From positions 1 through 62,036 of IMG/VR virus record IMGVR_UViG_3300042889_000724: a DNA stretch of 62,036 nucleotides, one strand, 5' to 3'. Shown here one piece after another: positions 9,753 to 15,259 of this stretch. This DNA is from a virus. The notes beneath the pieces are model-generated. The model did no database searches. It had not been told where the DNA came from and saw only the letters and a program-made list of their open reading frames with translations. Both the position numbers and the translations under genes were made by a program. Every line of letters starts with the position of its first letter. Position 1 is the first letter of the stretch.

Positions 9753-9834
9753 GATTAAACAATATTATCAAATTTATAAATTTAAGAAGAAAATGAAAAA
9801 ACTTAGAAAGTTAGATCCGTTCATTTATGATTGA
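9730..9834 (+). CDS. 34-residue basic micro-protein
   Basis: This short frame overlaps the end of the SGNH-like gene by 23 bases and the start of the carbamoyltransferase by 8. The protein is strongly basic (KFKKKMKKLRKL) and ends with LDPFIYD. I recall short Lys/Arg-rich proteins ending in a DPFIY-type motif in other large phages, sometimes near carbamoyltransferases. That recurrence and the coupled overlaps argue for a real gene. The function is unknown. Confidence 0.55.
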   Translation: MIKLLVSKIKQYYQIYKFKKKMKKLRKLDPFIYD

Positions 9835-11254
9835 GTGGGGAATCTCTGCAGGAGCACATGATGCTGCATTGACTGTTGTTGGTGGGGATGAGATTCTTTT
9901 CGCATCACATGCCGAGAGATATAGTGGTGTCAAAAATGACAAGCACCTAAATGCTGATCTGATCACTGCAGCATTGAAGTTTGGTAAACCAGAAAAGATA
10001 CATTGGTATGAGAAACCAAAACTACGAGCAATGCGCAGACTACTTTCGGGGCAAGGACTAGTTCGTTTCAGTGTTCGGCGATATCTAGAGGATGAATTTG
10101 GACTCCAAGTTCCTGTTGAATTTGCATCTCACCACGAGTCACATGCTGCAGCAGGTTTCTATACTTCTCAGTTTGAATCTGCAACTGCTCTAGTAATTGA
10201 TGCTATCGGTGAATTCGATACAGCATCTATTTGGTTGTGTGACAGCGAGAAGATGAAGAAGAAGTGGAGTATGGATTATCCGAAATCTCTTGGATTGTTT
10301 TATTCCGCTATAACAGACAGAGTTGGATTGAAACCAAACGAAGATGAGTATATTCTCATGGGTATGGCAGCGTATGGTAATCCCAACAAGCACTATTGGG
10401 ACATGCGCGAACTATATGAGCGAACTAATTTGCATCGTGGTTGTAGGTGGTGGTTGAAAAACGAAGATCCTGATCACTATGATCTTGCTGCCTCTGCGCA
10501 GAAGATTTATGAAGAAGAATTCGATAAACTGCTCCGTCGTGCCAAGGAAATAGACCCTCTACAAAATAATCTAGTTTTATCAGGGGGTTGCGCACTTAAC
10601 TGCTCTGCGAATCATATCGCTTTGAAATACTTCAAGAATGTATGGATTATCCCGAATCCAGGAGACGCTGGTAGTTCTCTTGGTGCTATTGCTGCAAACA
10701 ACCGCAGAAAACTAAACTGGCAAGGTCCATATCTCGGCGAGAATATTGATACTGAATATCCTGTAGAAAAACTATTGACTTCTTTGCGAGAAGAGGGTAT
10801 AGTGGGTGTTGCTAATGGAAAAGCAGAGTTTGGTCCGAGAGCATTTGGTAACCGAAGTCTTCTTGCTGATCCAACTAGACCAGAGATTAAGGACAGAGTA
10901 AATGCAATCAAGCGCAGACAAAAGTTTAGACCATTCGCACCAGTCATCCTTGAGCAACATGCAGCAGAGTATTTTGACATACCAGTTGAAGTATCCCCTT
11001 ACATGCAATTTACTGCAAGATGTAAATTTCCTACAAAGTTCCCTGCTATCATTCACGTTGATGGCACATCTCGCGTCCAAACTGTAAACGAGCAGCAGCA
11101 TCCAGGACTATTTGAATTGCTGACAAGATGGTATAAAGAAACTGGTTGTCCGATGTTACTCAATACCAGTCTGAACATAAAAGGGTTTCCGATGGTAAAT
11201 GATAAAAAAGATGCTGCAATGTTCCAAAACATCTATAATGTGGAAGTATTTTAA
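9827..11254 (+). CDS. Carbamoyltransferase, NodU/HypF-C family
   Basis: This 475-residue enzyme matches the O-carbamoyltransferase family, which moves a carbamoyl group from carbamoyl phosphate (through carbamoyl-AMP) to a hydroxyl. The YrdC/Kae1-like domain shows HHESHAA (H102, H103, H106), VIDAIGEFD (D125), and LSGGCALNCSAN plus GDAGSSLGA nucleotide-binding loops. The C-terminal domain begins at AEFGPRAFGNRSLLADP. No hydrogenase-type acylphosphatase or zinc domains are present, so it is NodU-like rather than HypF. Such enzymes occur in large phages, where the acceptor (nucleobase, sugar or small molecule) is often unknown. It is the last gene of the modification operon. Confidence 0.85.
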   Translation: MIEWGISAGAHDAALTVVGGDEILFASHAERYSGVKNDKHLNADLITAALKFGKPEKIHWYEKPKLRAMRRLLSGQGLVRFSVRRYLEDEFGLQVPVEFASHHESHAAAGFYTSQFESATALVIDAIGEFDTASIWLCDSEKMKKKWSMDYPKSLGLFYSAITDRVGLKPNEDEYILMGMAAYGNPNKHYWDMRELYERTNLHRGCRWWLKNEDPDHYDLAASAQKIYEEEFDKLLRRAKEIDPLQNNLVLSGGCALNCSANHIALKYFKNVWIIPNPGDAGSSLGAIAANNRRKLNWQGPYLGENIDTEYPVEKLLTSLREEGIVGVANGKAEFGPRAFGNRSLLADPTRPEIKDRVNAIKRRQKFRPFAPVILEQHAAEYFDIPVEVSPYMQFTARCKFPTKFPAIIHVDGTSRVQTVNEQQHPGLFELLTRWYKETGCPMLLNTSLNIKGFPMVNDKKDAAMFQNIYNVEVF

Positions 11255-13017: not shown

Positions 13018-13701
13018 ATGATGTTTGAAACAATATATGAATATGAAGATTTTGCCCAGTCAACTACGAGCGAAGATGGTGGTAGAGTTTATGTAAATGC
13101 CAGTGGCACTGCCTATCCCTCTGCCACCACCGTTCTTGGAGTTCTCTCTCGCGACTCTATCGCTGCTTGGCGAAAGCGTGTTGGCGAAGAAGAAGCAAAT
13201 AAGATTTCAAACAAAGCATCGACTCGTGGAACTAAGATTCACACGCTAACCGAAACGTATCTTAAGAACGAAAACGTTAGTGACAAGATTGATGAGGTCA
13301 AAGCGTCGATGCTCGATGTCGAGATGTTTAATAAATTCAAATCTATCCTAGATCCAATCAGTAACATTCATTGTCAGGAACTTGCGCTTTACAGTGATCA
13401 CCTGCGTATGGCAGGTCGAGTCGACTGTATTGCTGAGTATAACGGCAAACGTGCTGTCATCGACTTCAAGACTTCAAACAAGTCAAAGTCTAAATCATAT
13501 ATCGAGAGTTACTTCATGCAGACGGCAGCATATGCTATCATGTATGAAGAACGTACTGGTATTCCTGTTCCGTGGTTGGTAATCCTAATCGCAGTTGAAG
13601 ATGATGCTCCTCAGGTATTCATTGAAAAGCGTGACGACTGGGTGAAGAAACTTCTTCGCACTCGCGACTATTATGAAAATGGGTATTATACCAGTGAGTG
13701 A
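13018..13701 (+). CDS. PD-(D/E)XK nuclease (RecB/Cas4-type exonuclease)
   Basis: This 227-residue protein has the core of the PD-(D/E)XK nuclease fold. It shows RGTKIH (H75), an acidic residue before strand 1 (E121), GRVDCIAEY with D136, VIDFKTS with D149 and K151, and the QTAAYA motif (Q168, Y172) typical of RecB-like enzymes. The catalytic set H-E-D-D/K-Q/Y is complete, so it should be an active Mg-dependent DNA exonuclease, probably in recombination or host DNA degradation. There is no iron-sulfur Cys set of the Cas4 kind. Its 3' end overlaps the Cys-rich mini-gene by 29 bases. Either of two adjacent ATGs (13018, 13021) may be used. Confidence 0.85.
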   Translation: MMFETIYEYEDFAQSTTSEDGGRVYVNASGTAYPSATTVLGVLSRDSIAAWRKRVGEEEANKISNKASTRGTKIHTLTETYLKNENVSDKIDEVKASMLDVEMFNKFKSILDPISNIHCQELALYSDHLRMAGRVDCIAEYNGKRAVIDFKTSNKSKSKSYIESYFMQTAAYAIMYEERTGIPVPWLVILIAVEDDAPQVFIEKRDDWVKKLLRTRDYYENGYYTSE

Positions 13702-13872: not shown

Positions 13873-13903
13873 TTGACTTCCTACGTTAAGTATAGTATAA
13901 ATA
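13873..13903 (+). promoter_or_regulatory. tmRNA promoter: sigma70 elements overlapping a T4 late octamer
   Basis: TTGACT (13873-13878) is followed after 17 bases by TATAAA (13896-13901). The -10 hexamer is embedded in an exact TATAAATA (13896-13903), which is the T4-type late promoter element. The same start could therefore be used both early by host sigma70 and late by the phage sigma factor (inference). Confidence 0.7.
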
Positions 13904-13971
13904 GAATATTAGTTGATGACAGTTGACAATAAAAGCGGAAAGACGAGGGTTCGACTCCCTCCACCTCCACC

Positions 13972-14022
13972 ATGAGCACTGTTCCGATAGAGGGTTCAGT
14001 CGCCGAAAAGAGCAGTGCTCAT
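13972..14022 (+). other. Intervening processing hairpin of the permuted tmRNA
   Basis: A perfect 10-bp inverted repeat, ATGAGCACTG (13972-13981) and CAGTGCTCAT (14013-14022), closes the segment between the encoded CCA and the 5' acceptor strand. It extends the acceptor stem of the precursor. In known two-piece tmRNAs this segment is cut out by tRNA-processing nucleases, and the same is expected here. Confidence 0.85.
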
Positions 14023-14105
14023 GATGGGGGTGACCTTGGAATTCGATTTTCGTGTAATAGGAATACCGAGACTGATTGACTGGCAAAGCGCCACAAACTG
14101 TAAAT

Positions 14106-14141
14106 GCAAACGATAACGTTGCCTTTGCTCTAGCTGCATAA
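14106..14141 (+). other. tmRNA proteolysis-tag reading frame (ANDNVAFALAA)
   Basis: From the resume codon GCA the frame reads A-N-D-N-V-A-F-A-L-A-A then TAA. The A-L-A-A end is the classic ClpXP recognition tail, and the ANDN start is typical of tmRNA tags. Together with the trapped alanine, the added tag would be A-ANDNVAFALAA. The resume codon is assigned by analogy. Confidence 0.85.
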
Positions 14142-14239
14142 GCTAGCATTGGGTTTTTGATAGTTTTTCCTCGAAACAGAATAAAACTATCAACCGTTCG
14201 ATTAAACGGTTGAACCGAGTCTCACTGCGGTTCCATGCT

Positions 14240-14247
14240 TATAAATA
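14240..14247 (+). promoter_or_regulatory. TATAAATA octamer, possible late promoter for the lysin
   Basis: An exact T4-type late octamer lies at the 3' edge of the tmRNA. It would read through the hairpin at 14255 into the lysin gene at 14373. The intervening terminator makes this doubtful. Confidence 0.3.
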
Positions 14248-14254
14248 TTTGCAT

Positions 14255-14301
14255 AACCTACTATGCCTCTACTTGAAAAAGCACGCCTAGTAGGTTTTTT
14301 T
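14255..14301 (+). terminator. Terminator after tmRNA
   Basis: AACCTACTA (14255-14263) and TAGTAGGTT (14288-14296) form a 9-bp stem, ending in a run of seven T. The loop of about 24 bases is longer than usual, so efficiency is uncertain. It separates the tmRNA transcript from the lysin gene. Confidence 0.65.
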
Positions 14302-14372: not shown

Positions 14373-14978
14373 ATGACTTCCTTTAACAAGAAGTTTTTCA
14401 AGTTTCTTTCGATTTTTACAGTATTAGTATATAGTTTATATGGAATCAATTCATATGCTGAAGATGCTATCGAGAGAGATACAAGGGAATACTCCCTTGG
14501 CTTTGTAGAAGTAATCCAAGAGATTAAAGAAGATGCGGCAGAAGAAAAAAAGAAAACCGCATTAAGAAAAATTGAAACCCAAAACATACATTTAGCAAAT
14601 AATCGCGAATTGAAATGTCTAGCAGACAATATTTACTACGAGGCAGGAAACCAGTCAACTCAAGGAAAGTTGGCGGTTGCTGCAGTAACTATCAATCGCG
14701 TAAAAAGTCCCAAGTTCCCGAAGTCTGTATGCGCAGTCGTGTATCAGAGAACAAAGCGTGTTTGCCAGTTCTCATGGGTATGCGAAGGTAACAAGAGCAT
14801 ACGCAGTGCCCAGCAATATTCAGAATCTAAAAAAGTTGCTGAAAAAGTATTGCTTTCTGGGGCAAATCAGGGTATACTTGGACGTAACGTGCTATTCTAC
14901 CATGCGGATTATGTTAATCCGAGATGGAATCTGAAGCGTGTTGCAAAAATCGGTGATCACATTTTTTATGCAGGATAA
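14373..14978 (+). CDS. SleB-type cell wall hydrolase (probable lysin)
   Basis: This 201-residue protein has an N-terminal hydrophobic segment (FLSIFTVLVYSLYGINSYA, about residues 11-29) that reads as a signal peptide or SAR-type anchor. After a charged linker, the hydrolase domain runs from about 74 to the end. It has LADNIYYEAGNQ with the presumed catalytic Glu in YYEAG, LAVAAVTINRVKSPKFP and a CQFSW motif, as in the SleB/CwlJ Hydrolase_2 family. It would cleave peptidoglycan from the periplasmic side, either at lysis or while remodelling the wall. It sits just upstream of gp33 and not among tail genes. No holin is recognisable next to it. Confidence 0.8.
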   Translation: MTSFNKKFFKFLSIFTVLVYSLYGINSYAEDAIERDTREYSLGFVEVIQEIKEDAAEEKKKTALRKIETQNIHLANNRELKCLADNIYYEAGNQSTQGKLAVAAVTINRVKSPKFPKSVCAVVYQRTKRVCQFSWVCEGNKSIRSAQQYSESKKVAEKVLLSGANQGILGRNVLFYHADYVNPRWNLKRVAKIGDHIFYAG

Positions 14979-14989
14979 TAACTTTGAAC

Positions 14990-15259
14990 ATGGTAATGGA
15001 TGGTTCTGAAGTAACCAATGAATTTTTAATTACGAAAGAGTATAATACAGCAATAGAGTTCTCTCAATTCGTAGAGAAACAGTCATTCGAGAATGGTATT
15101 CCTTGTTTGGATATTCTTCTTGATTATTGTATCAAAAAAGATATTGAGATGGAGTCTGTTGCTGTATTACTCACCACTTCCCTAAAAGAAAAGATTCGAG
15201 CAGAAGCAGAAGAACTAAATATGCTAAAGCGAAAATCTGGCGGGAAATTACCACTTTAA
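14990..15259 (+). CDS. 33: gp33-like late transcription co-activator
   Basis: This 89-residue protein occupies the place of T4 gene 33, directly before gene 59 and then gene 32. In T4, gp33 bridges RNA polymerase and the sliding clamp (gp45) to activate late promoters. The LITKEYNTAIEFSQFVEK and CLDILLDYCIKKDIEMESV segments resemble the gp33 helices. The C-terminus GGKLPL is a short hydrophobic tail where T4 gp33 has its clamp-binding end. The start is uncertain. A TTG at 14984 is better placed behind AGGA, while ATG at 14990 is the first strong codon. The stop overlaps the next ATG by one base. Confidence 0.72.
   Translation: MVMDGSEVTNEFLITKEYNTAIEFSQFVEKQSFENGIPCLDILLDYCIKKDIEMESVAVLLTTSLKEKIRAEAEELNMLKRKSGGKLPL

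Follow-up and report, generated by a model that had tools for sequence, protein, structure and literature searches.

The 62,036-base window, i.e. the whole stretch of DNA analysed here (an IMG/VR virus record), carries a two-piece (circularly permuted) tmRNA gene at 13909–14236 on the + strand, and in the lineage of the window the intervening sequence (IVS) of this gene behaves as an exchangeable cassette that is swapped wholesale between phages. With a probability of roughly 80%, we read the locus as a functional, late-expressed two-piece tmRNA whose discarded IVS is a site of exchange and bears genes in relatives. It is the IVS that is the unusual part of the gene; a preliminary description, made from the sequence alone, had noted it merely as a hairpin linking the acceptor strands.

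Structure of the tmRNA gene

The Rfam covariance model tmRNA_permuted (RF04321) matched 13911–14141 with 86.2 bits against a cut-off of 47 (E 3.8e-15). The alpha_tmRNA model (RF01849) scored 54.5, a narrow margin above its cut-off of 50, and the beta_tmRNA model (RF01850) scored 56.1, below its cut-off of 84. ARAGORN, an independent caller, also reported a permuted tmRNA, with the tag ANDNVAFALAA. The covariance search had been named in the preliminary description as a check on its proposal of a permuted two-piece tmRNA in a T4-like phage, and it bears the proposal out.

The 3' half of the tmRNA is encoded ahead of the 5' half, with the IVS between them. The 3' piece (13909–13972, +), defined from RF04321, ARAGORN and the sequence, consists of a helix strand, the T-arm GAGGG/TTCGACT/CCCTC (13945–13961), the acceptor 3' strand CACCTCC (13962–13968), the discriminator A (13969) and an encoded CCA (13970–13972). 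Its 5' end at 13909 is an estimate, the RF04321 match beginning at 13911. The 53-nt IVS (13973–14025, +), which is predicted to be removed, comprises a 12-bp closing stem, a 25-nt loop and a TGAT linker. The 5' piece (14026–14236, +; 3' end estimated) was delimited from RF04321, ARAGORN, folds and alignment with relatives. It starts with the acceptor 5' strand GGGGGTG (14026–14032) and contains a D-loop-like region and an mRNA-like region. The T-arm, the CCA end and the GGGGGTG strand were thus all located where they had first been placed. All seven of the proposed acceptor pairs form, the G3·U wobble among them, and compensatory changes in this stem were seen in the alignment with relatives. 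A G3·U pair is an identity element for AlaRS.

The tag frame, read identically in the preliminary description and by ARAGORN, runs from GCA at 14106 to 14138 and is closed by a TAA stop at 14139–14141 (+). Many related contigs have the same or a similar tag, most ending in LAA. Folding of the remainder of the 5' piece gave three hairpins (14158–14192, 14192–14211 and 14212–14233, +), where two had been counted earlier; the terminator reported after them is present as a terminator-like hairpin with a 9-bp stem and a U run (14255–14301, stem 14255–14296, +; −13 kcal/mol, z −2.9). The stretch 13911–14141 as a whole folds with z −5.3.

The retained tag is relevant to whether the RNA acts in ribosome rescue at all. 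The RNA might be made and processed mainly to titrate SmpB or to block host trans-translation, in the manner of the DS6A phage tmRNA, which has a tRNA-like domain only and was reported to inhibit host tmRNA (PMC4131195, PMC11915505). No SmpB gene was found in 14 phage records, which fits such a role and also means that any tmRNA activity depends on the host. However, a decoy or regulator would not need the tag frame, the LAA end and the stop, which are kept across many related contigs, and we consider this role very unlikely. Even less credible is that the locus is a non-functional remnant of a host ssrA gene. Permuted ssrA genes do occur in alphaproteobacteria and others, and prophage ssrA fragments are described in PMC9004378; nevertheless, the pairings, the CCA and the tag of the window gene are all intact, the acceptor and IVS stems show compensatory changes, the locus is conserved across phages, and a tmRNA with the tag of the window was not found in the 84,980 species genomes scanned with a tag pattern.

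The IVS hairpin and its linker

The perfect 10-bp linking hairpin of the preliminary description exists (13972–13981 paired with 14013–14022), but in the energy model the IVS stem is 12 bp long and stacks on the acceptor stem. The segment formed by the acceptor and the IVS hairpin (13962–14033) folds with −40.6 kcal/mol and z −7.3, and 0 of 200 shuffles were as good. Folded alone, the IVS gave z −4.0. In the predicted fold, the tmRNA precursor is one long helix with a single C·A mismatch inside the CCA end, and from this model we infer that the helix places both cleavage sites.

The same layout recurs widely. In 82 of the 109 IVSs that exceed 15 nt, a closing stem of ≥9 bp ends four nt ahead of the 5' piece (shuffled mean 0.1, maximum 2), and in 83 the linker is TGAT; TGGT, the perfect complement of ACCA, was found once. 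The bacterial IVSs compared were two plasmid-borne cases, and the tmRNA of a Microvirga plasmid has the hairpin–TGAT layout as in phages, which is therefore not phage-specific.

In 17 loci scanned with Rfam at gathering thresholds, the tmRNA was the only RNA family recognized over the IVS, and ARAGORN found no tRNA inside 95 IVSs, while T-arm-like motifs were present in the IVSs of L149, L078, L159 and L277. A structured IVS type with the pattern GACGA.CC...GG.AGCAAAC...GGC recurred in L046, L048, L091, L096 and L151, with no Rfam match in those scanned. The 2025 tmRNA database (PMC11915505), which lists 11,946 permuted sequences, reports one tRNA (tRNA-Ala) in the IVS of a permuted tmRNA and one repetitive element in another. 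These resemble the present case in that the IVS holds extra cargo, but they are single cases, with no protein genes or phage exchange.

A late promoter at a fixed position

The octamer TATAAATA, the exact T4 late promoter consensus (PMC5587285), lies at 13896–13903 (+). A spacing as in T4 puts the predicted transcript start at ~13909, i.e. essentially at the 3' piece. The comparison set comprised 122 distinct two-piece genes (that of the window and 121 others, nearly all viral), after exclusion of L142, L056 and L113 as false pairings among the script-called intact tmRNA_permuted loci. Within 110 nt before the CCA end, TATAAATA was found in 40 of the 122 genes, against 1.26 expected, and 27 of the matches were located 76–77 nt ahead of the CCA end. 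All eight genes that share the 5' piece of the window have it 77 nt before the CCA end. No sigma-70-type promoter was found on the + strand near the gene.

As an argument from motifs, this suggests late expression of the window tmRNA, in contrast to the early promoter and expression proposed for the Methylophilales phage Melnitz in PMC9004378. The fixed position of the late promoter thus gives a direct prediction of timing that is at odds with the literature proposal. In the window, exact TATAAATA octamers number 12 on the + strand and 0 on the − strand; the octamer at 14240 is followed closely by the terminator-like hairpin, which precedes the hydrolase gene.

Exchange of the IVS between phages

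Compared with the window, the loci L255, L256, L265 and L167 are 93–95% identical upstream, 95–100% in the 3' piece, 99–100% in the 5' piece and 98–99% downstream. Their IVSs, of 65, 134, 67 and 70 nt, respectively, are unrelated to that of the window. In L257, the IVS is just 5 nt long. L328 shares with the window an IVS that is 92% identical, with flanks of only 42% and 66% identity and pieces of 76–78%; relative to the window, its IVS has a compensatory change from G-C to A-U at pair 2 of the stem.

The IVS differences might instead reflect nothing more than fast drift in a spacer under no constraint, together with assembly errors and chance ORFs. Drift is to be expected of a segment that the mature RNA lacks (PMC11915505), and in a sample not selected for ORFs, the number of IVS ORFs led by a Shine-Dalgarno-like (SD) sequence was not above that in shuffles (3 vs 1.0). 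Yet drift cannot explain unrelated IVSs ahead of 5' pieces that are 99–100% identical, nor does it agree with the strong retention of the closing stem and TGAT, or with the ORF families in which synonymous change is in excess (see below). Moreover, the main IVS types were found repeatedly, in several contigs, which is evidence against assembly error; some such errors could be present in metagenomic contigs. We therefore regard drift as quite unlikely.

Genes inside the IVS of relatives

The IVS of the window itself contains no ORF. ORF-bearing IVSs were sought with a scan for CCACCTCCACCA followed by an SD-like sequence and ATG, which by design selects for SD–ATG; it returned 69 stretches, many of which are permuted tmRNA genes. 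In the pooled set, an SD-led ORF spanning most of the IVS was present in 27 distinct genes. Since the counts in the unselected sample did not differ significantly from shuffles, the case for coding depends on codon evolution. Synonymous change exceeded non-synonymous change in all four of the IVS ORF families compared, one pair being compared per family (p 7e-6 to 5e-3, pooled Fisher p ~2e-14). By this measure of codon change, coding selection acts on the four families.

In several of the ORFs, the TGA stop lies inside the TGAT linker, so that the ORF ends one base short of the end of the linker (IVSs of 82, 86, 138, 170, 177, 180, 208 and 482 nt). The closing stem is retained in 23 of the 27 ORF-bearing IVSs, and in consequence the SD-like sequence commonly lies within the stem. 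Apart from an HNH-like family, the ORFs have a small hydrophobic or Cys-rich appearance. L361 and L373 have identical 3' pieces and 95% identical 5' pieces, and their ORFs are entirely different. In L359 and L395 the IVS holds two ORFs, of which the second, small and hydrophobic (MFK.Y..WSICADI), is common to both, and the rest of the IVS differs.

HNH alone gave a credible lead when known families were sought for the IVS ORFs, and no relatives of three of the ORFs were found in 50,697 phage records. One protein, with the motif CSC...CGTC, was considered as a BFD [2Fe-2S] domain and had no Pfam support. Two further kinds of frame were also seen. In L065, L066, L139, L051 and L118 the IVS lies inside a frame that is open through the tRNA-like 3' piece and encodes the shared motif WYYT.NEWSR....PPERN, for which no start codon was identified and no phage relative was found. 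The IVS frame of L199, L200 and L213 encodes a CCGRGCEGCVW-type Cys motif, which may be akin to the Oxidored-like domain.

An IVS of 482 nt, at L340:5948-6429, contains an ORF for a 156-aa HNH-like endonuclease with its stop within the TGAT linker; such an ORF is also present in L356, L368, L375 and L376. The L340 protein resembles cyanophage homing endonucleases, with a Pfam HNH match just under the cut-off (E 5e-4). In tmRNA, homing endonucleases have been noted solely in group I introns (PMC11915505). As in that case, the endonuclease gene of L340 sits where RNA processing removes it, but no intron is involved, and removal would occur by tRNA-end processing rather than splicing. The five HNH-bearing contigs raise the question of whether HNH-type endonucleases drive IVS replacement in general, short hairpin IVSs such as that of the window being leftovers. 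This seems unlikely to us: a single family among the IVS ORF families is HNH-like, a near-identical gene without the HNH ORF was not found for L340, and the hairpin IVSs retain a paired, compensated stem, unlike scars.

A more specific form of the exchange reading is that the IVS is a site dedicated to carrying genes, in which the ribosome-binding sequence of the cassettes lies in the processing stem, so that translation and tmRNA maturation would compete. The cassettes may then be of several kinds, namely structured RNAs, small membrane or Cys-rich proteins, and homing endonucleases. We put forward both parts of this idea tentatively, at somewhat less than even odds.

Genome setting and relation to known tmRNAs

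Upstream of the tmRNA gene lies a PD-(D/E)XK exonuclease gene (13018–13701, +; PF12705, PHROG 298). Downstream are genes for a cell-wall hydrolase (14373–14978, +; PF07486) and a gp33-type phage late-transcription coactivator (14984–15259, +; PF16805). Further neighbours encode a DUF6171 protein, gp59 and gp32, and T4-like baseplate and tail genes are found farther along. With gp32, gp33, gp59 and T4-type baseplate genes present, the window is a T4-like phage. At 9827–11254 it also encodes a Nol-like carbamoyltransferase (PHROG 1601), of the PHROGs class of auxiliary or host-takeover genes.

A search for the gene in related phages, as had been suggested, found ssrA in a matching gene neighbourhood in numerous related phage contigs. 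The tag was also sought in 84,980 species genomes, as a pattern for ANDNVAFA in which part of the codons were fixed; there were two matches (Desulfobacteraceae and Fusibacter), and ARAGORN found no tmRNA in either. Both results disfavour a fresh capture of a host gene, which was one of the origins first considered. Permuted tmRNAs were also detectable in isolate phages of Ruegeria, Alcaligenes, Stenotrophomonas and Xanthomonas; in RpAliso, a phage of R. pomeroyi DSS-3, the IVS is 30 nt long. In the records of four Xanthomonas/Stenotrophomonas phage isolates (L403, L405, L407 and L404) they are unannotated, and in L404 an annotated hypothetical protein lies antisense over the permuted tmRNA.

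The two-piece phage form had been thought possibly new; it is in fact already described, with phage examples published since at least 2022. As reported in PMC9004378, two-piece molecules make up 53 of 133 phage tmRNA structures, 50 of these from marine or aquatic phages, and the two-piece tmRNA of Melnitz adjoins its late coactivator gene. Melnitz therefore resembles the window as a T4-like phage with a permuted ssrA near the late-transcription coactivator gene. It differs in having a glutamine riboswitch; in the window, Rfam at gathering thresholds listed the tmRNA alone and no glnA-type riboswitch beside ssrA. The portion of that source available to us makes no mention of IVS exchange for Melnitz. 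In Pelagibacter phage Mosig EXVC030M (MT647606), SsrA is annotated, and the nuclease, tmRNA, late coactivator and gp59 are ordered as in the window. Mosig differs in its tag (GEDNFALAA vs ANDNVAFALAA), in its hairpin IVS (44 vs 53 nt) and in the absence of the cell-wall hydrolase that stands between tmRNA and coactivator in the window. The alphaproteobacterial two-piece tmRNA (RF01849) is likewise permuted, with the T-arm and CCA first and a CAACAGAA-like motif in the 3' domain, but the score is low and the tag and IVS are different. We found no literature report of IVS-nested genes, in a search that left older work (Sharkady and Williams 2004, Mao et al. 2009) outside its scope. The gene itself is thus one more of the known phage two-piece tmRNAs, and the exchangeable, sometimes gene-bearing IVS is its variant feature.

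Proposed mechanism and significance

In the model that we favour, the gene would be transcribed late in infection, probably from its own TATAAATA promoter, and the single precursor would fold with the IVS hairpin and the acceptor stem stacked on each other. The tRNA-processing enzymes of the host (RNase P at 14026 and 3' processing at 13972) would cut out the 53-nt IVS, and the two tmRNA pieces would remain paired and receive alanine. Together with host SmpB, the charged tmRNA would free ribosomes stalled on broken mRNA and add the LAA-ending tag, and the tagged products would presumably be degraded. Because it is discarded, the IVS would be free to change or to be replaced, and recombination within the conserved pieces on either side is the most likely route. 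The IVSs of relatives contain different hairpins, genes for small proteins or an HNH-like endonuclease gene. We infer the processing, charging, rescue activity, timing and recombination route of the window tmRNA from the features described above.

The IVS is normally treated as waste. Here whole IVSs are exchanged between phages, and those of relatives contain small genes on which coding selection acts. Should this be confirmed, it would mean that genes can be housed within an RNA gene while the RNA stays unharmed, in an arrangement that is intron-like but in which removal occurs by tRNA-end processing.
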